The translations under genes were made by a program, and so were the position numbers. The notes under the pieces are model-generated. The model did no database searches. It had not been told where the DNA came from and saw only the letters and a program-made list of their open reading frames with translations. A stretch of 34,886 bases of DNA from Candidatus Methanoperedens sp. (GTDB lineage Archaea; Halobacteriota; Methanosarcinia; Methanosarcinales; Methanoperedenaceae): the NCBI GenBank assembly GCA_026552855.1, contig JAPMTX010000160.1, positions 1-34,886 on the forward strand, read 5' to 3'. Positions 21,830-34,878 of the stretch are shown one piece after another (the stretch's first letter is position 1; each line of letters opens with the position of its first letter).

Positions 21830-23053
21830 CTACCTCAGGGCATAGCCCCCGTACCGCCTGTTAATAGTTATCACGCTCGCAAGAAGCGCAAGGAAGGTCG
21901 CTATCTGCACCGCTATTATCTGACCTACGGTATCATGGAACACCAGGAACAGGAATACCTCTAACAACGTGAATAACACCAGGGGATACCTGAATGCAGT
22001 CCTCTTTGCCGAGACATCGTAGAACATGAAGATAATGGAAAGGGAGAGGAGGCTCATAGCCAGGGCATACCATACAAGATAGCCTGCGATAGAAGCGTAG
22101 TTCTTCCCGAAGAGGACAGTCATTATCAAACCGGGCGCGAGGGCGTAGGCAGAGAGGACGGCAGCCAGGAAAAGCCCGAAATAGATAAGAGCCTTTCTCA
22201 ACAGGAACCCGTGCGTCCTGTTAAGGGCGGACAGCTCGCTCACCTTGGGGAGAATCACATTACCGAAGGCTATGGCTGAGAAGTAGATGACCTCGCCGAT
22301 CATTTTCATGGCTGTAAAGTAGCCCGATACCTCGCCCGGGAAGTATCTCCTGACAAAAAGGATATCAATGCTGCTCATTACAGTTATGCAAAGCACGAGC
22401 ACGAATATGGGTGAAGCGTACCTGTAGACGGATATCTCGACCTGTTCGCTCTTTTCCCGCAGAACTGGCACGAGCGGTATGAGAGCAAGCACCAGGATGA
22501 CGAATGCGCCCGCGCCGTAGGACAGTATTGCGCCGTTCACTCCGGCGCCCAGATAGACAAAGAGAGCGCCGAACAGCAAAAGCGCAGGCTTTTCCACGGC
22601 AATATTGAAACCGAGACTGTTGAATTCCTGCATTCCCTGAAGCGTACCCCTCGGAGAAGTGAGAAGCGTGATGAATATAAGGGAAAACCCCAGGATAATG
22701 ACCGGAATCGCCGAAGGAAGGTTCAGGACGCTTTTGAGGAGGGGGCTCAATGCGAGCAGCACAACGAAAATAATTATGCCGATATATACAAGCTTCTTTG
22801 CAGATGCCAGAAGTATCGACCTTATTTTCCCCCTATCGCTTTTTTGCTCTGAGACTACGTGAGCCAGCGTTGTGGTGATGACAGTGGCTGGCACGGAGAA
22901 TATATAGAGAAGGGAGAGCATCGAGCCGAGGATGCCGTAGCCCTCAGGACCGAGCGCACGCGCCATGTAGAAATAGAAGACGTAGGCGAAAAAGAATGAG
23001 ATGACGTAGGCGAAGAGGATTATGGCTCCATGCCTCAGCAGTTTATCTTTCAT
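21830..23053 (-). CDS. Polysaccharide-type flippase (MOP superfamily, Wzx-like)
   Basis: The protein is 407 aa from ATG 23053 (residue 15 of the longer reading from 23095). It has about 12 membrane segments and the N-terminal motif YMARALGPEGYGILGSMLSL, typical of O-antigen and teichoic-acid type flippases, which move lipid-linked glycans across the membrane. The internal start is chosen because a TATA-like GTGTATATGG lies about 30 nt before it and the first 14 codons of the longer reading are not conserved-looking. It is divergent from the sulfate-activation operon, with about 125 bp between starts, so the two may share regulation. Confidence 0.85.
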   Translation of the reverse strand: MKDKLLRHGAIILFAYVISFFFAYVFYFYMARALGPEGYGILGSMLSLLYIFSVPATVITTTLAHVVSEQKSDRGKIRSILLASAKKLVYIGIIIFVVLLALSPLLKSVLNLPSAIPVIILGFSLIFITLLTSPRGTLQGMQEFNSLGFNIAVEKPALLLFGALFVYLGAGVNGAILSYGAGAFVILVLALIPLVPVLREKSEQVEISVYRYASPIFVLVLCITVMSSIDILFVRRYFPGEVSGYFTAMKMIGEVIYFSAIAFGNVILPKVSELSALNRTHGFLLRKALIYFGLFLAAVLSAYALAPGLIMTVLFGKNYASIAGYLVWYALAMSLLSLSIIFMFYDVSAKRTAFRYPLVLFTLLEVFLFLVFHDTVGQIIAVQIATFLALLASVITINRRYGGYALR

Positions 23054-23127
23054 AATATCTTCGGTTCTAATTGTAAGAGCTACCATATACACCAAATATC
23101 TGATATACCCTCCTACAGGTTAAGAAA

Positions 23128-23137
23128 AATATATATA
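23128..23137 (+). promoter_or_regulatory. TATA box of the sulfate-activation operon
   Basis: AATATATATA is about 45 nt before ATG 23178, giving a transcription start near 23159 and a leader of roughly 19 nt. It abuts the inverted repeat beginning at 23138. Confidence 0.6.
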
Positions 23138-23175
23138 CACTCTGATTGTACTATGATAGCACTACAATCAGAGTG
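23138..23175 (+). promoter_or_regulatory. Perfect 12-bp inverted repeat, candidate operator
   Basis: CACTCTGATTGT (23138-23149) and ACAATCAGAGTG (23164-23175) are perfectly complementary with a 14-nt spacer. The element fills the space between the TATA box and the first start codon and covers the predicted transcription start. It is a good site for repression, most simply by the RHH protein encoded by the first gene. Confidence 0.7.
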
Positions 23176-23177
23176 TT

Positions 23178-23390
23178 ATGCAGGACAAAGTCACCATCAA
23201 AATCCCAAGGAAATTGTACGAGACCTTGCAGGAGATGATAGAAGGGACAGGTTTCTCCAGCACAACGGAGTTCATCGTTTTTATCCTGCGGACGCTGGCT
23301 TCCACCGGCAAGATTAAAGAGGATGATAAGCTCACGGAACAGGAAGTCCAGGTCATAAAAGAAAGGCTCAAAAGACTCGGATATTTATAG
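23178..23390 (+). CDS. Small ribbon-helix-helix protein (RHH1), first gene of the sulfate operon
   Basis: This 70-aa protein has a strand VTIKIPR (5-11), helix LYETLQEMIEGT and a second helix SSTTEFIVFILRTL (27-40), the RHH fold pattern of MetJ/Arc/CopG regulators. A charged C-terminal helix follows and ends KERLKRLGYL. It is encoded immediately downstream of a perfect inverted repeat and 11 nt before the CysD-like gene, so it probably represses its own operon. It shares the tail motif and overall layout with the last gene of the operon (27010-27231), so the two could form heterodimers. Confidence 0.75.
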   Translation: MQDKVTIKIPRKLYETLQEMIEGTGFSSTTEFIVFILRTLASTGKIKEDDKLTEQEVQVIKERLKRLGYL

Positions 23391-23401
23391 GAGAATAAAA
23401 A

Positions 23402-24205
23402 ATGGACCATCTGGACAAACTGGAAAGTCAGAGTATCTATATAATACGGGAAGCATACAAGCAGTTCAAGGACATAGCTGTACTCTGGAGCATAGGAAAA
23501 GATTCCACAACGCTGGTGTGGCTTGTAAGAAAAGCGTTCTACGGCAGGGTACCGTTCCCTGCGCTTCACATAGATACAGGCTACAAGTTCAAGGAAATAT
23601 ATGACTTCAGGGACGAATGGTCAAAAAAATGGGGAATGAGGCTTGTTGTGGGCAGTAATGAAGTGTCGCGCAAATGCGGCATGGGACCCAATGCAGGGGA
23701 TAAACTTTCGTGCTGCGGGCAGTTGAAGACCGAGGCTTTAAAGCAGACGATAGAGAAATACAAATACAAGGCTATACTGCTGGGTATTCGCAGGGATGAG
23801 CACGGCATAAGGGCAAAAGAGCGCATTTTCTCGCCCAGGAACAGGCAGTTTGAGTGGGACTACAAAGACCAGCCTCCTGAGCTGTGGGACCAGTTCAAGA
23901 ACAAACAGCAGGGTGAACAGCATATCAGGGTGCATCCTCTGCTGCACTGGACAGAACTGGATATCTGGATGTACATTCAGAGGGAGCATATTCCTATCGT
24001 AGACCTTTACTTTGCGAAAAACGGCAAAAGATACAGGAGCATAGGATGCGAACCCTGCTGCAACCCCGTGGATTCAGAGGCTGATACTGTCGATAAGATC
24101 GTGGAGGAACTCAGGACAACAAAAGTGGCTGAACGCAGCGGCAGAGCGCAGGACAAGGAAAGGGCGTACATGATGCAGAAATTAAGAGCCCTTGGCTACA
24201 TGTGA
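23402..24205 (+). CDS. cysD: CysD-like sulfate adenylyltransferase subunit with extra Fe-S-type cysteines
   Basis: This 267-aa protein has the PP-loop SIGKDST (30-36), HIDTGYKFKEIYDFRDEW, GIRRDEHGIRAKERI and a C-terminal AERSGRAQDKERA segment, all CysD features. CysD with CysN makes APS from ATP and sulfate. Unlike the CysD proteins I know, it has Cys104-Cys105 (SCCGQLKTEAL) and Cys216-Cys219 with Cys220 (RSIGCEPCC). The CC and CxxC pairs stand where APS reductases hold a [4Fe-4S] cluster. The C-terminal catalytic Cys of reductases is absent: no Cys follows 220. The call is therefore a sulfurylase subunit that may bind Fe-S. GGAG precedes the ATG and cysN is two genes downstream. The last residues are QKLRALGYM. 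Confidence 0.82.
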   Translation: MDHLDKLESQSIYIIREAYKQFKDIAVLWSIGKDSTTLVWLVRKAFYGRVPFPALHIDTGYKFKEIYDFRDEWSKKWGMRLVVGSNEVSRKCGMGPNAGDKLSCCGQLKTEALKQTIEKYKYKAILLGIRRDEHGIRAKERIFSPRNRQFEWDYKDQPPELWDQFKNKQQGEQHIRVHPLLHWTELDIWMYIQREHIPIVDLYFAKNGKRYRSIGCEPCCNPVDSEADTVDKIVEELRTTKVAERSGRAQDKERAYMMQKLRALGYM

Positions 24206-24211
24206 TCTTGC

Positions 24212-25039
24212 ATGGAGATTGAGTCTGTTTTCATCGGGGTTTTCATCGTATCTCTGCTGGCTGAATACATGGATGCCACTATCGGGATGGGATACGGCAC
24301 AACACTGACTCCGCTTCTCCTTCTGATAGGTTTCTCACCCCTGCAGGTAGTGCCCGCTATTTTGCTCTCCCAGTTCCTTTCCGGTATATTCGCTGCAACG
24401 CTGCACCAGGGAGCTGGCAATGTATCCTTTGATTTCAAGAACGATACCGAGCATAAAATCGTTAAGAGATTAGGGAAACTGGGTTATATCCCTAAATCCG
24501 CAGCCGCAAAGGTGGCGATGGTACTTGTCATGTCCAGCATCGTTGGAGTGTTTGCTGCAGTTTTGATCGCATTGATGCTGCCTGTATTTTACCTTAAACT
24601 CTACATAGGGCTTCTTGTTGTCGCAATGGGGGTTATCATAATCGCCAGGCATAAGAGCCGGAATGAATTCTCATGGAAAAAGATCATGGGACTTGGCGTT
24701 CTTGCATCTTTTAACAAGGGCATTTCCGGCGGGGGATACGGTCCGCTCATCGTCTCGGGACAGATCCTTTCCGGGGTGGAGACAAAGAATTCGATCGGCA
24801 TAACCGCGCTGTCTGAAGGGGCTACCTGCTTTATCGGCGTTATAACATATTTCATCGTCGGTACAGGTGTGGACTGGCTGCTGGCTCCGTATCTCGTTCT
24901 AGGTTCTCTGATCTCAGTACCCCTGTCCGTATACACCGTGAAGAGGATGCCGGTAAAGCAGTTCACATTGATCATAGGAGCAGCGACAACATTGCTCGGT
25001 CTATTTTCGCTATATAAACTATTGGGACCCCTGAATTAA
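24212..25039 (+). CDS. TauE/SafE-family membrane permease
   Basis: The 275-aa protein has about eight membrane segments in the two-repeat layout of the TauE/SafE family, with [20 protein letters not shown] (20-39) and the second-repeat match [18 protein letters not shown]. Family members move sulfite, sulfonates or sulfoacetate, and related proteins act as sulfate carriers. Placed between the two ATP sulfurylase subunit genes, the most likely role is sulfate uptake or export of a sulfur anion. The cytoplasmic loop contains [11 protein letters not shown] (84-94), similar to the C-termini of neighbouring products. It starts 6 nt after cysD. Confidence 0.88.
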
Positions 25040-25046
25040 TTCAGGG
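25029..25046 (+). repeat. 18-nt perfect palindrome at the permease-cysN junction
   Basis: CCCTGAATTAATTCAGGG spans the permease stop codon and is followed directly by ACTATAAAAAGAGG and the cysN start. It may form a hairpin just before the cysN ribosome site, or be a protein-binding site. The TATA-like CTATAAAAA is too near the ATG to drive a leaderless transcript. Confidence 0.7.
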
Positions 25047-25064
25047 ACTATAAAAAGAGGAAAA

Positions 25065-26294
25065 ATGAATAACGAAAAATTGAAATTCGTAATCGTGGGA
25101 CACGTTGACCACGGAAAGAGCACATTGATAGGAAGATTGTTATACGACACGAATTCCCTGCCTGAGGGGAAGCTTGAGGAGATAAAACAGCTCTGTGAGA
25201 GCCTCGGCAAGGATATCGAGTTCGGTTATATCATGGACCACCTTGAGGAAGAGCGCGACCAGGGAATTACAATAGATACTGCGCAGACATTCTTTAGTAC
25301 CGGAAAAAGGGATTATGTGATAATCGATGCTCCCGGTCACGTTGAGTTCGTGAAGAACATGATAAGCGGCGCTTCGCAGGCAGAGGCGGCTGTGCTCATC
25401 GTGGACGCAGAAGAGGGCATTAAGGAGCAGACAAAAAGACATGCCTACATCCTCGGGATGCTGGGATTGTCCCAGGTGATCGCGGTCATCAATAAGATGG
25501 ATCTGGTAGATTACGACAGGGAAAGGTTTGAGAGCGTGAAGAAAGACCTGCTGGATTTTCTATCGAATATCAATATAAGACCGTCCTACGTCATACCCAT
25601 CTCAGCAAAAAACGGGGATTTTATAGCTAATAGAACCGGGAATATGGACTGGTATAAGGGTCCCACTCTTCTTGAAGCGCTGGACACCTTCAGAACAAAA
25701 GAAAGCGCCAATAATAAGCCTCTTCGATATGTTGTCCAGGATGTTTACAGCTTCGATAAGCGCATCATTGCAGGAAGGGTTGAGAGCGGCATAATCAGGA
25801 AAGGGGATAAAATCAGGGTACTGCCGTCGGGTGAAGAGACAAAAGTAAAGAGTGTGGAGGAATATCTTAGAAATGTCACTGAAGCAGAAGCCGGGAAGAG
25901 TACAGGAATTACTACTGAGGATAAACTCTTCATCGACAGAGGAAATGTGATCGTGAGCCTGGGCGACCTTCCTGCGGTTACAAACAGGATAAAAGCCAAC
26001 GTTTTCTGGATGGACAGGGTACCGTTTAAGAAAGGGGAGAGCCTGAGGTTCCGCTGTGCAACGCAGGAAGTGAACTGCGAGATAGAGAATATAAGCAGGG
26101 TCATCAACTCTTCTACACTTGAGCTGATCGCCGAAGATGCGGATGAAATAAAAAACAGGGAGGTGGCAAGTATTACTATAAAAACCGACAAGCCTGTAGT
26201 GGTTGAGAACTTCAACAGGATGGAAGAACTCGGAAGGTTCGTGCTTGGAAGAGAGGATACCTGCGCAGGCGGGATAATCACGGAGATGGTATGA
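25065..26294 (+). CDS. cysN: Sulfate adenylyltransferase subunit 1 (GTPase)
   Basis: This 409-aa EF-Tu-like GTPase has G1 GHVDHGKS (12-19), G3 DAPGH (88-92) and G4 NKMD (143-146), then two beta-barrel domains. It has the CysN landmark [20 protein letters not shown] (58-77) that separates CysN from EF-1A. CysN couples GTP hydrolysis to APS formation by CysD. There is no fused APS kinase (CysC) domain, and none is encoded in the window, so APS is the expected product. GAGG precedes the ATG. Its stop overlaps the next start (ATGA), so the following gene is coupled. Confidence 0.93.
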
Positions 26295-27013
26295 TGATAA
26301 TCTTCGCCATCGATGCCCTGGAATACACACTGGTGGAGGAATTCAACTGCAATAACCTGAAGCAGAAGTTCTATGGGAAGACCAATATCAGGGAATTTTC
26401 AGAGCCAAAGACAATGGTTCTCTGGAGTTCCTTTATGACCGGGAGGAATATGGAAAAAGAGATAGTGGCTAAAGGCGACAGGGAGATGTGGAATACCAGA
26501 TTGGATTTTAATGACACGTTCTTCAAACAGTTTGAGAACCCGAAAATAATAGACCTGCCAGGGTTTAACTACATCAAAGAACAGCACGAGATGGAGAGAA
26601 AGCTGCTTAAGGAGTATTTTGATGCAAAAAACGAAGAGGAAAAAAAGAAGGTAAGAACAGCCTATAATAACCTTTCATTCGAACACCACAGGAAAATAAA
26701 ACAGGAGTTCAATGAGGCATTAAAGGGGGACTATGATTTTGTTCTCGGCTATTTCAGTGTGGCAGATGTCATCGGACACCTGAATTTCGGCAACAGGACC
26801 ATGATGAAGATGATATACAGGGATCTGGACGAGATCGCAGGTACTATCGGGGAACCCTATATCGTGCTGTCGGATCACGGTATGGAACCTGTTGGAATCT
26901 TCGGAGACCATTCGAACTACGGGTTCTGGAGCACGGGTTTTAAGGATCTGGGCAGTCCGAGGATAACTGATTTTGCAGGGATGATGAGAGGATTATCGGA
27001 TGTGAAATTATGA
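26291..27013 (+). CDS. Compact alkaline-phosphatase-superfamily enzyme
   Basis: This 240-aa protein has the metal-site pattern of type I phosphodiesterase/nucleotide pyrophosphatase relatives: Asp8 in IIFAIDALE, a nucleophile region [11 protein letters not shown] (41-51, with Thr41 or Ser46/47 as nucleophile), D159-x3-H163 in [14 protein letters not shown] at 194-197 and GDHS at 206-208/209. Most relatives are 400-500 aa, so this is a reduced form. It has no signal peptide and is cytosolic by inspection. Being coupled at both ends (4-nt overlaps) to cysN and the second RHH gene, it probably acts on APS or a nucleotide or sulfate ester made from it. The substrate is inferred. Confidence 0.78.
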
Positions 27014-27231
27014 GTGAAGAATATGGAGTTATAAAGGTACCAAAAGATCTTTTGGAAAAGGTAGAGAAACGCATACATGGAACAGAATTTAAATCGGTAG
27101 ATGAATATACTGCTTTTGTACTGGAGGAAGTCGTCAGAGAAGATGGAGACGAAGAAGCTGAAGAAGTGTTTTCAGAAGAAGATGAGAAAAAAGTAAAGGA
27201 AAGGTTAAGAGCGCTTGGGTATCTGGATTGA
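27010..27231 (+). CDS. Second small ribbon-helix-helix protein (RHH2), last gene of the sulfate operon
   Basis: The 73-aa protein has a strand GVIKVPK (6-12), helix KDLLEKVEKRIHGT and a second helix KSVDEYTAFVLEEVV, then an acidic linker (about 44-58) and a basic tail KKVKERLRALGYLD. It is a diverged partner of the first gene of the operon. Its second helix is more acidic, and the glycine-rich turn is less clear than in RHH1, so it could be an anti-repressor or dimer partner and not a DNA binder. Its ATG overlaps the phosphatase-like stop. Confidence 0.68.
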   Translation: MSEEYGVIKVPKDLLEKVEKRIHGTEFKSVDEYTAFVLEEVVREDGDEEAEEVFSEEDEKKVKERLRALGYLD

Positions 27232-31818: not shown

Positions 31819-33333
31819 GTGGGAAATACGAGCGAATCGTTAGGGAAAATAGCAAAGGGTGCTGCTATTGCGTTTGTTGGGATGCTTGCCTTTACTTTTT
31901 TTGAGTTCGTCACAAGGGTGATCATTGCCAGGTATGCGACCCAGGGCGAATACGGTGCTTTCAGCATCGGGTTTGCTTTACTGAACATCTTTGTCATGAT
32001 ATCCTGTCTGGGGTTACAGGGAGGAGCCACGCGGTGCATTGCATATTTCAGAGGGAAGGGGGAGGATGAAAAAGTCGCAGGGATTGTATATTCGTCTTTG
32101 CAGCTTTCAGTTGTAGCAGGATTGTTTTTCTTTCTGGTTGTTTTCGTTTCATCTGACTTTCTAAACGAGATATTCCATCTGGAGCAATCGACGGTTTTAA
32201 AACTGTTTGCGGTAGCAATCCCGTTTCTCACTGTCATCGAAATTCTATCGTATATCTTCATTGGATTTAATAGAATAAAAGAAAAGGTATTTTTTAGGGA
32301 CATCCTGATGTATCTGTTAAGAGTTTCATGCATCGTATTTGCTTTTATTTTGGGATTCGGTTTTCTCGGAATGATGTATGCGTATCTACTTCCGACCGTG
32401 ATCGTTGCCGTTGTTTTTGCAGGCTATGCGGTTAAGAAGTTATCTATACAATTAAAAGATAATGTAGTAATAAGAAAAAAATTGTTCCGTTTTTCTATAC
32501 CATTACTCGTCACATTCCTCTCCACTGTGATAATCATAAGAGCGGATACGCTGATGCTTGGATACTTCAAAACTTCTGAAATCGTTGGTTTATATAACAC
32601 TGCTGTCCCCATCGCACAGCTTCTTCCTATTTTCCTTACTTCCATGGGTTTTATATATGTCCCTATTTCTTCGCAGTTGTATTCAAAAAATCTTGTTGAA
32701 GAGATGAGGAGAAATTACGCAGTATTAACAAAATGGGTCCTGATGGCTACGCTTCCTTTTTTCTTCACGATATTTCTCTTTCCAGAAGCTGTGCTAACTA
32801 TTATTTTTGGTCCTTCTTATGAGCATGCAGGTAGTGCATTGCGAATACTTTTGCTCGGTGCATTAGTTCAGGTGCTCACTGGGCCTAATGCCTTAACGCT
32901 GGTTGTAGCCGGAAAGACTAAACTTAACATGGTGGATGATTTGATTGGTCTGATAGTGAACATCTCTCTGAATTTCTTCCTCATACCAACAATGGGTATT
33001 ACTGGCGCTGCCATAGCATCTTCAATATCGCTTATCACAATAAATGTGTTAAAATCCACTCAAATTTTCTGGCTGCATAAGATACATCCGTTCACCTTAA
33101 ATTTTATAAAATCTATAGCAACATCAACTGTATTTATATCTGTTATATATCTGCTCTTTGTAAGTTTATCCAGCACTTCGATAACGATCTGGATGTTAAT
33201 CATATTCTTCTTTTTGTTCTTAACTGTACAAGTCGCAGGTTTAATCATTACAAAGAGTTTTGACAAAGAAGATATAATATTGCTTCAGGAAGCGAAAAAA
33301 ATTTTAAATAAGAATGTGAACTCCCCTGTTTGA
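31819..33333 (+). CDS. Polysaccharide-type flippase (MOP superfamily, Wzx-like)
   Basis: This 504-aa protein has about 14 membrane segments and the N-terminal motif VIIARYATQGEYGAFSIGFA of the same family as the flippase at 21830, but longer and not closely similar. It starts at GTG 31819, 14 nt after the previous gene; no ATG is available nearby and the first membrane helix begins soon after. It probably exports lipid-linked glycan units. The adjoining convergent gene (33364) is a phosphodiesterase-like enzyme often found with such transporters. Confidence 0.87.
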   Translation: MGNTSESLGKIAKGAAIAFVGMLAFTFFEFVTRVIIARYATQGEYGAFSIGFALLNIFVMISCLGLQGGATRCIAYFRGKGEDEKVAGIVYSSLQLSVVAGLFFFLVVFVSSDFLNEIFHLEQSTVLKLFAVAIPFLTVIEILSYIFIGFNRIKEKVFFRDILMYLLRVSCIVFAFILGFGFLGMMYAYLLPTVIVAVVFAGYAVKKLSIQLKDNVVIRKKLFRFSIPLLVTFLSTVIIIRADTLMLGYFKTSEIVGLYNTAVPIAQLLPIFLTSMGFIYVPISSQLYSKNLVEEMRRNYAVLTKWVLMATLPFFFTIFLFPEAVLTIIFGPSYEHAGSALRILLLGALVQVLTGPNALTLVVAGKTKLNMVDDLIGLIVNISLNFFLIPTMGITGAAIASSISLITINVLKSTQIFWLHKIHPFTLNFIKSIATSTVFISVIYLLFVSLSSTSITIWMLIIFFFLFLTVQVAGLIITKSFDKEDIILLQEAKKILNKNVNSPV

Positions 33334-33363: not shown

Positions 33364-34878
33364 CTATATCTTACCAAGCCGTTTCAATGTTGTTATTCTA
33401 TTTTTAATTCTCTCTCTATCATCGGCTTCGTTATATCTTATCTCCCTTTTCATTACTTGCGAATCGACCTTAAAAATCTCCTTTAAAACTCTTCCATCCA
33501 TATCTTTAGGAACTGGTATACCGAACATATGCAAAATCGTTGGCGCTACATCCCATATCTTCGCATTTATCTCAATGTTTTCCTTTATATCCGGTCCCCA
33601 AGCAATGAAAGTTCCATTGATCCTGTGTGATCCACCCTGCCATTCTACGAATTCGCTACCATAGCCAACTTTTGCAGTTATAGAGTTCACATAATCATCC
33701 GTATCGAGGATGATATCCGGTGCCAGATTTAAATATTTCCCACGATACACTTCTTCTCTTCTGTATGCCTTCACAGATATCTTTTCCAAGCCATCTATGA
33801 TTTCATCTCTCAATTTTTCATAATCTTCTTCTTTAACGATTCCCTGCGGCTCCCTGCCGGCTAAATTTATGTAAATAGTACCCCATGTAGCATAACTAAA
33901 AGCCTTCGTTCTATCCCACTGTATAGGAGTTCTTCCGGTCTGCTGGGTTACACTTCGATACAGGTGCCTTGTAAAAGAAAAGTTCAATAACGGGGTCAGA
34001 AATTTCAAGAGGATGGGCTTTCTAAGGATTGATACCATTGCCTTGATAGTGTTAAGTGTTGGTATCCTTTTTATTTCTAAGAGACCCTTATTTATCAGAT
34101 ATTCATTTACAAGGAAGGCTTTCTTATTTGGCCCAAAACCATGATCCGATACTATGAATATATTGGGCTTTTCACCTCCCTCCTCGATTTTATTGATTAT
34201 CTGCTTTAATTTATTATCTATATTTTGATAATGACTCAAAAGAATGTCTTTTTTATCCCAGAACTGATGCTGTACCCGGTCCAATTCTGTAAAGACGAAA
34301 AAACCAAAATCCCAGGGCTTGTCCAGGAATTTAAAAAGGACTTTGCAATGTTTCTCGGTTATCTCCTTGTGCCTTCTTGAAAATTCTTTATCATTAAGGC
34401 TTCCAAAAATATCTGGATCAGTCATATCCATTTCATAATTTAAATTTTGTAACTCTTCTCCCAATTCTTTCGGATAAGTCAATTTATCTTCATTTGTGCA
34501 CAGGCTCCCGGCGACCATATGCCCATTGATCCTGTATGCGCTAAGAATGTTTGGTGCGTTTAAGATAAAAACTTTGCTTCCGTTGTCGCTTAAGATATCC
34601 CATATATCTTCCTCTTTCTCAACCGTCTGGGAATATACCCTGAAGTCATAACTTCCAGAAGCTTTCTGTATAAAGCTAAAGCAGCCTATCCTGCCCGGGT
34701 TCTTACCAGTTGCAAGGCTGTTCCACGCGGGAATTGTAATCGCCGGTCTGGTGCTTTCCAGATTACCACAACAACTTTCAGACATTAACTTCTGAAACAT
34801 TGGCAGTTTACCTTCACGTGCCCAGGGTTTTATCAAATCCAGTGTTGCGCCATCCAGGCCTATTACTAGAACTTTCAT
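33364..34878 (-). CDS. Type I phosphodiesterase/AP-superfamily hydrolase
   Basis: This 504-aa protein has the alkaline-phosphatase-superfamily metal residues: Asp9 (VIGLDGATL), the nucleophile Thr48 in AITIPAWNSLATG, D200/H204 (ELDRVQHQFW), D245/H246 (VSDHGFGP) and H418 (GGSHRING). The size is normal for the archaeal and bacterial phosphodiesterase/nucleotide pyrophosphatase group that is common in surface-glycan clusters. It has no signal peptide or membrane segment. The C-terminus (RIKNRITTLKRLGKI) resembles the tails of products in the sulfate operon. The gene is complete, with its ATG eight nt from the window end; its upstream region is not seen. Confidence 0.85.
   Translation of the reverse strand: MKVLVIGLDGATLDLIKPWAREGKLPMFQKLMSESCCGNLESTRPAITIPAWNSLATGKNPGRIGCFSFIQKASGSYDFRVYSQTVEKEEDIWDILSDNGSKVFILNAPNILSAYRINGHMVAGSLCTNEDKLTYPKELGEELQNLNYEMDMTDPDIFGSLNDKEFSRRHKEITEKHCKVLFKFLDKPWDFGFFVFTELDRVQHQFWDKKDILLSHYQNIDNKLKQIINKIEEGGEKPNIFIVSDHGFGPNKKAFLVNEYLINKGLLEIKRIPTLNTIKAMVSILRKPILLKFLTPLLNFSFTRHLYRSVTQQTGRTPIQWDRTKAFSYATWGTIYINLAGREPQGIVKEEDYEKLRDEIIDGLEKISVKAYRREEVYRGKYLNLAPDIILDTDDYVNSITAKVGYGSEFVEWQGGSHRINGTFIAWGPDIKENIEINAKIWDVAPTILHMFGIPVPKDMDGRVLKEIFKVDSQVMKREIRYNEADDRERIKNRITTLKRLGKI

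Follow-up and report, generated by a model that had tools for sequence, protein, structure and literature searches.

A conserved archaeal gene cluster of CysDN, a compact AP-superfamily enzyme and ribbon-helix-helix proteins, and its possible role in sulfation

Genes of the module

This work concerns a six-gene cluster, referred to as the module, in a 34,886-nt stretch of DNA from Candidatus Methanoperedens sp. (the window, meaning the whole stretch that was analysed). The module combines the CysD and CysN subunits of a sulfate adenylyltransferase with a membrane protein, a compact hydrolase of the AP superfamily and two small ribbon-helix-helix (RHH) proteins. The original prediction, made from the sequence alone, had described six genes packed on one strand, and the list of open reading frames (ORFs) of the window bears out its positions, gaps and overlaps: all six lie on the + strand, with gaps of 11, 6 and 25 nt and two 4-nt overlaps. 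The own genome (G000) comprises 3.4 Mb in 211 contigs, with a completeness rated at 99.86% and a contamination at 6.49%. Among named organisms, Candidatus Methanoperedens nitroreducens Mnv1 (locus L011) is the closest, with a hydrolase that matches that of the window at 92%. Where needed, genomes, loci, contigs and families are given by G, L, C and f numbers. The features of the module are the following.

23137-23176, + strand: operator-like inverted repeat (shuffled sequences; half-site in relatives)
23178-23390, + strand: RHH1, ribbon-helix-helix regulator (PF01402, 24.9 bits with a cut-off of 20.5; alignment)
23402-24205, + strand: CysD, sulfate adenylyltransferase catalytic subunit, module type (PF01507, NF003587, alignment, 1zun_A, tree)
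24212-25039, + strand: TauE/SafE-family membrane protein (PF01925; synteny)
25065-26294, + strand: CysN, GTPase subunit (TIGR02034; alignment)
26291-27013, + strand: compact AP-superfamily enzyme of the nucleotide pyrophosphatase/phosphodiesterase (NPP) type, 240 aa (PF01663; alignment; structural model and fold matches)
27010-27231, + strand: RHH2, small RHH-like protein (similarity to RHH1-type proteins; no Pfam RHH match)

CysD scored 358 bits with the NCBIfam model NF003587 (cut-off 195) and stayed under the cut-off of TIGR02039 (275 vs 396.6). CysN reached 368.5 with TIGR02034 (cut-off 336.1) and the compact hydrolase 25.6 with PF01663 (cut-off 23). RHH2 matched no Pfam or NCBIfam RHH model at E up to 1 and is classed as an RHH protein solely because of its similarity to RHH1-type proteins. 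When the genome was searched with PF01507 and PF01583, CysD was the only match in the window. The statement of the original prediction that the window holds no APS (adenosine 5'-phosphosulfate) kinase, no reductase of APS or PAPS (3'-phosphoadenosine 5'-phosphosulfate) and no sulfite reductase is uncontradicted by a scan of 16 window genes, in which sulfite reductase was not searched as a family. A scan with bacterial promoter and terminator models, which have little bearing on an archaeon, gave 9 promoter-like sites where 7.1 were expected and 6 terminator-like sites where 3.1 were expected.

Conservation across archaea

A first sample of 17 loci (L011-L027) was obtained by searching species genomes with the hydrolase. 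These loci were labelled Methanoperedens, ANME-2 (anaerobic methanotrophic archaea), Methanosarcinaceae, Methanothrix, Thermoplasmata, Altiarchaeales, Woesearchaeota, Aenigmatarchaeota and Thermoproteota, with two 'uncultured archaeon' entries and one Desulfobacteraceae bin. CysN was found in all 17 loci and CysD in 14, the three others (L012, L016, L019) starting inside the module at a contig end; CysN is a fragment in L019 and is divided over two frames in L024. By the ORF starts as called here, the hydrolase gene overlaps cysN by 4 nt in 9/17 loci. The gap is ca. 460 nt in L017, and two genes separate the pair in L025 and L027, those of L025 being glycosyltransferases. RHH-type proteins occur in 13 of the 17 loci; L012 and L019 are cut, and L021 and L025 have none. 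A second sample was collected with the hydrolase profile alone from 371 genomes of a second phylum, that of G303. Eleven genomes matched, eight of them new, and in all eight new loci CysD, CysN and the hydrolase occurred together, with RHH proteins in six (L199 is cut, L205 has none). With both samples joined, cysN is present in 25/25 and cysD in 22/25 hydrolase loci, more than expected by chance. The module is a real, conserved archaeal gene cluster that spans archaeal phyla.

Within the window's phylum the compact hydrolase is rare, with matches at E <= 0.001 in 8/294 genomes, strong in two (own and G159). In L016 the module lies on a contig of the Desulfobacteraceae-labelled bin, with a hydrolase at 69% to that of the window, which reflects contamination or transfer. 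A viral origin was rejected since the peptide patterns used gave 0 relatives in viral contigs.

Two other elements of the original prediction fared less well. A TauE-like gene was present in only 9/17 loci (on the opposite strand in L019), a DUF2061 gene in four (L018, L020, L022, L024) and neither in four. Because TauE is not essential to the module, the claim that the module imports sulfate is not established. The bracketing of the module by two RHH genes exists in the window and is only one of several arrangements among relatives; it was rejected as a defining feature because both RHH genes precede the module in ANME-1-like loci, the second is missing from L011, and neither occurs in L021, L025 or L205. 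The remark that this is not a described system stands as far as the open literature searched by titles and starts of abstracts is concerned, where no description of the module was met, subscription journals lying mostly outside that search.

Two kinds of CysD

CysD was detected at E <= 1e-30 in 33 of the 294 genomes of the window's phylum: the own genome, 13 of f8, 18 of f2 and one of f14. Judged by gene content, f8 probably corresponds to ANME-1 and f2 to Methanosarcinaceae. Thirty of these loci (own, f8 and f2) were fetched, and two kinds of CysD were found. In 13/30 loci (own and 12 of f8) CysD ends in KLRALGYM, the remaining f8 gene, in L154, being broken. This locus (G214, contig C128) has a CysD with internal stops and a damaged RHH gene adjoining. 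The classical CysD of f2 ends in EGYF in 16/16 loci, has a CysH (with a KECGLH tail) within the ca. 3-kb locus in 14/16, and has an RHH gene within such loci in 0/16. In 10 of the 13 f8 genomes a gene for an RHH protein with the module-type tail shares a contig with CysD and lies no more than 4 kb from it; for the remainder, both genes are damaged (G214) or CysD lies at a contig start (G035, G189). Three f8 genomes (G103, G160, G249) gave RHH matches but no CysD at E <= 1e-30, and in L093 (G249) and L097 (G160) the stretch ends at the position expected for CysD.

A tree of 27 module and 7 classical CysD sequences, with rows picked by hand and the own CysH as a distant row, is split by one branch of length 2.5 (100/100) into the two kinds. 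Module CysD keeps the PP-loop, RRDE and RAKER motifs in common with 1zun_A. The assimilatory CysDN of E. coli/Pseudomonas and the module share the same CysD and CysN families and motifs. Roughly residues 232-262 of 1zun_A have no counterpart in module CysD, whose C-terminus reads LGYM where that of the classical type reads EGYF. The module further differs from assimilatory CysDN in having no linked CysH or CysC and in the presence of RHH and AP-superfamily genes in the operon. The CysD ORF of L201 (6743-8866, - strand) is 707 aa long and contains an intein (PF14890 and a LAGLIDADG domain) in the PP-loop, directly after SIGKDS.

APS consumers

PF01507, which covers both CysH-like proteins and CysD, was searched in 18 host genomes. 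In nine of these (G301-G305, G307-G310), which are metagenome bins of 0.3-1.9 Mb, no CysH-like match of comparable strength to CysD was found, and a single CysD was the only strong match. Weaker matches (8e-8 and worse) were seen in G304 (one, a 320-aa frame) and G310 (two); frames of ca. 300 aa with such weak matches, which also occur in Methanoperedens, seem to resemble tRNA-thiolation enzymes. Full-length APS kinase was absent from the nine bins, with no match or partial matches at E 3e-5 or worse, compared to 1e-58 for a whole APS kinase. No Sat was found above the cut-off, G303 having a match below it at 7e-4. In the loci read, no CysH-like ORF was flagged beside module CysD, and APS kinase is likewise absent from the module.

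In the own genome CysH adjoins a gene on contig C106 that was labelled sulfite-reductase-like from its sequence, and Sat lies on a separate 4.2-kb contig, not that of CysH. This genome also encodes a divergent APS-kinase-family protein without the DGD and RDPKGLY stretches of the L123 enzyme, which we take to be APS-kinase motifs. Sat was found in four Methanoperedens-type genomes. A sulfite-reductase-like gene, CysH and Sat are adjacent in L217 and L218, the CysH of Mnv1 being split into two ORFs (L217:5721-6439), and in G306 Sat lies ca. 195 kb from CysH. Methanoperedens differs in this respect from the nine bins. Methanoperedens has two APS sources, and CysH goes with Sat where gene order is known. 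Taken together, the lack of any detected CysH, full-length APS kinase or Sat in the nine bins and the presence of genes for CysH, sulfite reductase and Sat apart from the module in Methanoperedens make the module look like a second source of APS that is not assimilatory.

These data bear on ordinary assimilation, in which CysH, or an APS reductase yet to be recognised, would use the APS of the module on the way to cysteine. The presence of CysH and a sulfite-reductase-like gene in the own genome fits this explanation, and so does the literature: in the part of Yu et al. 2018 available to us, CysDN is recorded in ANME and read as assimilatory, and its GTP cost is stated; its main text as available does not contain the words operon, TauE or phosphatase. 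We nevertheless consider assimilation highly unlikely, because the CysH of Methanoperedens sits with Sat in L217 and L218, nine host bins lack a CysH-like match of comparable strength, and no CysH-like ORF was flagged beside module CysD, as compared with 14/16 classical CysD loci that have one. As the main role it was set aside on the order of the sulfite-reductase-like gene, CysH and Sat in L217 and L218 and on the nine bins without CysH.

A shared C-terminal peptide and an operator-like palindrome

RHH1, CysD and RHH2 of the window end in one type of peptide, L-x-x-L-G-Y-L/M/I. The C-terminal sequences are IKERLKRLGYL for RHH1, MQKLRALGYM for CysD and VKERLRALGYLD for RHH2. Among 196 complete ORFs picked in L011-L027, with contig-end ORFs dropped and the tail defined as LGY[LIMVF] plus up to three residues, the tail was present in 35, namely 14 CysD and 21 RHH proteins, and in 0/161 other ORFs. 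It was rejected as a general RHH feature: an RHH profile matched three proteins of the own genome at E <= 1, and only the two module RHH proteins carry the tail, the third matching over positions 3-51 of 71 only. The CysD tail is modelled as a helix with pLDDT <50, stretches 135-152 and 154-171 being equally poor. The tail is not confined to CysDN modules: RHH proteins that carry it also adjoin Sat clusters or AP-superfamily genes (L133, L136), and others lack a clear partner (L131, L132, L134, L140). In L133, L135, L136 and L137 an LGY-tailed RHH protein is encoded beside AP-superfamily-like or glycosyltransferase-like genes with no ATP sulfurylase nearby. Two further proteins have related ends: a 504-aa PF01663 protein of the window (33364-34878) ends in LKRLGKI, close to the module tail, and a sulfatase-like neighbour in L205 ends in LSELGYIQ.

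The inverted repeat in front of RHH1 consists of perfect 14-bp arms at 23137-23150 and 23163-23176 with a 12-nt spacer. Only 1 nt separates it from the start of RHH1, a TATA-like stretch lies just upstream of it, and 0/60 shuffled sequences had a palindrome as good. A search of the window with the right arm returned the two arms only (0 and 1 mismatch) and nothing else at up to three mismatches, a count that is no better than chance at that level (1.5 expected). The half-site CTACAAT[TC]NGAGT has 13 exact matches in 417,382 bases (both strands of 22 loci), all just upstream of RHH1, in 4 Methanoperedens/ANME-2 and 9 f8 loci; this pattern was fitted by eye after viewing the sequences and has no match in 9 of the 22 loci, and the f8 loci are relatives of one another. 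A perfect palindrome as a general rule was rejected, because only 4/21 upstream regions (window, L011, L017, L127) have a good one, matched by at most 2/60 shuffles; the half-site is the conserved part. A different palindrome, ATACATA-N4-TATGTAT, precedes the first RHH gene in 6/13 other loci (L020, L027, L200, L201, L203, L204). With the palindrome and the half-site, the RHH proteins look like the module's own regulators, in agreement with the control by two small regulators that had been predicted. The tail common to CysD and both RHH proteins and the palindrome before RHH1, neither of which the original prediction had noted, are new here, as are the recurrence of the half-site in relatives and the contrast with classical CysD of the same phylum, which is without the tail and mostly has CysH for a neighbour.

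The compact AP-superfamily enzyme

In an alignment of 18 sequences, D8, T41, D159, H163, D195, H196 and H207 are invariant in all, and these we take to be the two-metal and Thr nucleophile pattern of NPP enzymes. An AlphaFold model had a pLDDT of 87.8, weaker around 202-205. The enzyme shares PF01663 and the conserved nucleophile and metal pattern with ENPP and bacterial NPP proteins, and NPP structures with bound AMP were among the fold matches. It differs from them in being far shorter, 240 aa compared to 370-820 aa for the PDB matches, and because H196 and H207 are 11 positions apart there is no room for the usual cap. The formylglycine motif C/S-x-P/A-S/A-R is absent from the alignment; the majority site is EPRTMVLW, with T41 and W45 invariant. 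The motif was also found in 0/12 neighbours taken for AP-superfamily proteins, of which only that of L017 was scanned against Pfam, and formylglycine sulfatases near the module were rejected on this count. In ANME-1-like loci a 260-270-aa PF01663 protein occupies the position of the hydrolase.

A looser connection would have the genes share a pathway but no intermediate: either CysDN activates some anion or substrate other than sulfate, or the substrate of the AP enzyme is a glycan, a sugar nucleotide or a sulfate ester and not APS. In favour of this, the AP enzyme has no close solved relative (best E 0.028), cysN and its gene are separated by two glycosyltransferases in L025 and by two other genes in L027, AP-superfamily-like neighbours without the formylglycine motif recur, and G159 has a lone copy. 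We regard this explanation as unlikely, since CysD keeps the three motifs of 1zun_A and the hydrolase gene overlaps cysN in 9/17 loci.

Clusters with a different ATP sulfurylase provide a comparison. In f7, f28 and f32, probably Archaeoglobi-like genomes, an RHH protein with an LGYLD tail is encoded beside subsets of Sat, a DHH protein, an AP-superfamily protein, APS kinase and TauE. The full set occurs in L123, L124 and L125; L126 lacks Sat, and L121 and L122 have fewer. Only the L123 proteins, among them a 457-aa AP-superfamily protein, were scanned against Pfam, and the other five loci were read from length, order and sequence. Two unrelated ATP sulfurylases thus have an RHH protein and an AP-superfamily partner in common, and nothing else suggests as strongly that the AP enzyme takes part in activated-sulfate chemistry.

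Surface-glycan context

The module of the window is flanked on both sides by flippase-like genes.

21830-23095, - strand: polysaccharide flippase-like gene (PF01943)
31819-33333, + strand: second polysaccharide flippase-like gene (PF01943; related to flippases adjoining the module in other archaea)
33364-34878, - strand: second PF01663 protein, 504 aa, beside the flippase-like gene (Pfam scan)

The surroundings of 22 module loci, out to 6 kb, gave 109 ORFs of 150 aa or longer, which we compared with 110 ORFs from elsewhere in the host genomes. The control omitted G308 and four f8 genomes, 2/17 of its stretches were too short for ORFs, and most of them were contig starts. The flanks contained Polysacc_synt (8/109), NTP_transferase (4), Glycos_transf_2 (3), Epimerase (3) and Sulfatase (3) members, and no glycan-type family had two or more members in the control. 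The fairer test is that of Polysacc_synt alone, with 8/109 flank ORFs versus at most 1/110 control ORFs (p 0.019). When sequences from the flanks served as queries, 12/22 module loci and 0/15 control loci had a gene for a flippase, glycosyltransferase, sugar nucleotidyltransferase, UDP-sugar dehydrogenase or epimerase; adding L026 gives 13/22 (Fisher p 0.0002), a value that is circular in its queries and has a small control. In two loci ComA-like coenzyme M synthesis genes lie within 6 kb of the module (L129:9014-10424, L024:11539-12312), in L129 together with a gene taken for ComB.

The original prediction had proposed that the module makes APS and uses the hydrolase to split or reset APS or a related sulfated nucleotide. 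In such a cycle the APS made by CysDN would be hydrolysed by the AP enzyme to AMP and sulfate, which would act as a safety valve or reset regulation. The complete set of NPP-type residues, the AMP-bound NPP structures among the fold matches, the 4-nt overlap of the hydrolase gene with cysN and the lack of another detected APS consumer in the nine host bins all agree with it. As the purpose of the module, however, the cycle was not supported: making and breaking APS spends ATP and GTP for nothing, which is hard to square with bins of 0.3-1.9 Mb, and the flanks point to surface polysaccharide. Nor does the cycle account for these flanks or for the parallel cluster that contains APS kinase and a DHH protein. 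A pure APS-hydrolysis cycle is therefore less likely than a role in sulfation, and we judge it quite unlikely.

Known systems show partial likeness to the module. Cluster VI of Campylobacter jejuni HS:19, according to the part of the report available (PMC8743553), likewise has cysD, cysN and an anion permease beside a glycosyltransferase and is proposed to serve glycan sulfation, not cysteine synthesis; it has cysC and a putative PAPS sulfotransferase, whereas the archaeal module has neither and carries an AP-superfamily enzyme in the operon. With bacterial-type glycan sulfation loci in general (cysDNC and a sulfotransferase) the module shares the polysaccharide surroundings, without the APS kinase. 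Sulfate activation in archaea is also known from a methanogen with ATP sulfurylase, APS kinase and a DHH-family PAP (3'-phosphoadenosine 5'-phosphate) phosphatase (Jespersen et al. 2023, PMC10322725), and a DHH protein is also found in the RHH-Sat clusters. In the available part of that paper the ATP sulfurylase and APS kinase go with the DHH protein and no RHH or AP partners are named; its authors raise the possibility of a non-canonical sulfotransferase in other methanogens that would transfer sulfate to an acceptor, and name no gene for it.

Proposed function

We tentatively propose, giving it a little less than an even chance, that archaea use this self-regulated cluster as a dedicated APS-forming module for the sulfation of surface glycans (or of another sulfoconjugate) and not for sulfate reduction. 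The sequences themselves show the gene order kept across phyla, the absence of consumers as far as bins allow, the glycan surroundings, the tail on CysD and RHH proteins and the palindrome with its recurring half-site; the activities and the regulation that follow are inferred from these. CysDN would make APS at the cost of GTP, and the AP enzyme, whose gene overlaps cysN, would be the APS-consuming step. Thr41 and two metals would attack the AMP-sulfate anhydride, and sulfate would be passed to an acceptor, or released by hydrolysis if no acceptor is present. We favour sulfate transfer rather than plain hydrolysis, since small genomes would be expected to lose a futile cycle and since glycan genes lie in the flanks. 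RHH1 and RHH2 would autorepress the operon. Their LGYL tail may compete with the tail of CysD for one docking site, on CysN or on the AP enzyme, and this competition would report enzyme assembly or load to the promoter. A bolder version is speculative and rather unlikely: PAPS-independent archaeal sulfation, in which the compact AP enzyme uses APS directly and the tail of CysD, the RHH proteins and some AP neighbours docks to a common partner, so that the DNA-bound repressor reads enzyme assembly.

Several observations weigh against a sulfation role. The fold search gave 10 PDB matches at E <= 0.001 with NPP enzymes and sulfatases mixed (TM by query 0.33-0.51), and we know of no precedent for a 240-aa AP domain acting as a sulfotransferase. 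To our knowledge no sulfated glycan has been described from these hosts, and glycan genes occur at only 12/22 module loci (13 with L026). The absences in the nine genomes may be gaps because these genomes are bins, and G302, G303 and G310 have partial APS_kinase matches above the Pfam cut-off, inside 370-457-aa frames. The CysH of Methanoperedens could use the APS of the module, the CysH-Sat operon being seen only in L218 and, with a broken CysH, in L217. The hydrolase of G159 (L138, contig C11) is the sole exception seen to the association with cysN: this copy is lone, in two frames and apparently broken, with no CysD or CysN within the 10 kb read around it. RHH genes are absent from L021, L025 and L205. 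The occurrence of PF13469 sulfotransferases in 0/21 archaeal genomes (1/22 overall, the Desulfobacteraceae-labelled one) speaks for the proposed role, but this was the only sulfotransferase family searched, and PF03567, according to the available part of a review, detects proteins in Woesearchaeota.

If the proposed role is right, the consequences concern both sulfur metabolism and gene regulation in these archaea. The CysDN of ANME was read as assimilatory (Yu et al. 2018, as far as available), and a distinct clade, which can be told by its ten-residue tail and, in most loci, by its RHH neighbours, is now placed in something else. The AP enzyme of the module is a candidate for the non-canonical archaeal sulfotransferase suggested in the available text of Jespersen et al. 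2023 (PMC10322725). The module also offers a testable case of what may be a regulator that copies the tail of an enzyme whose genes it controls, and the cluster may represent an unrecognised way of making sulfated molecules.

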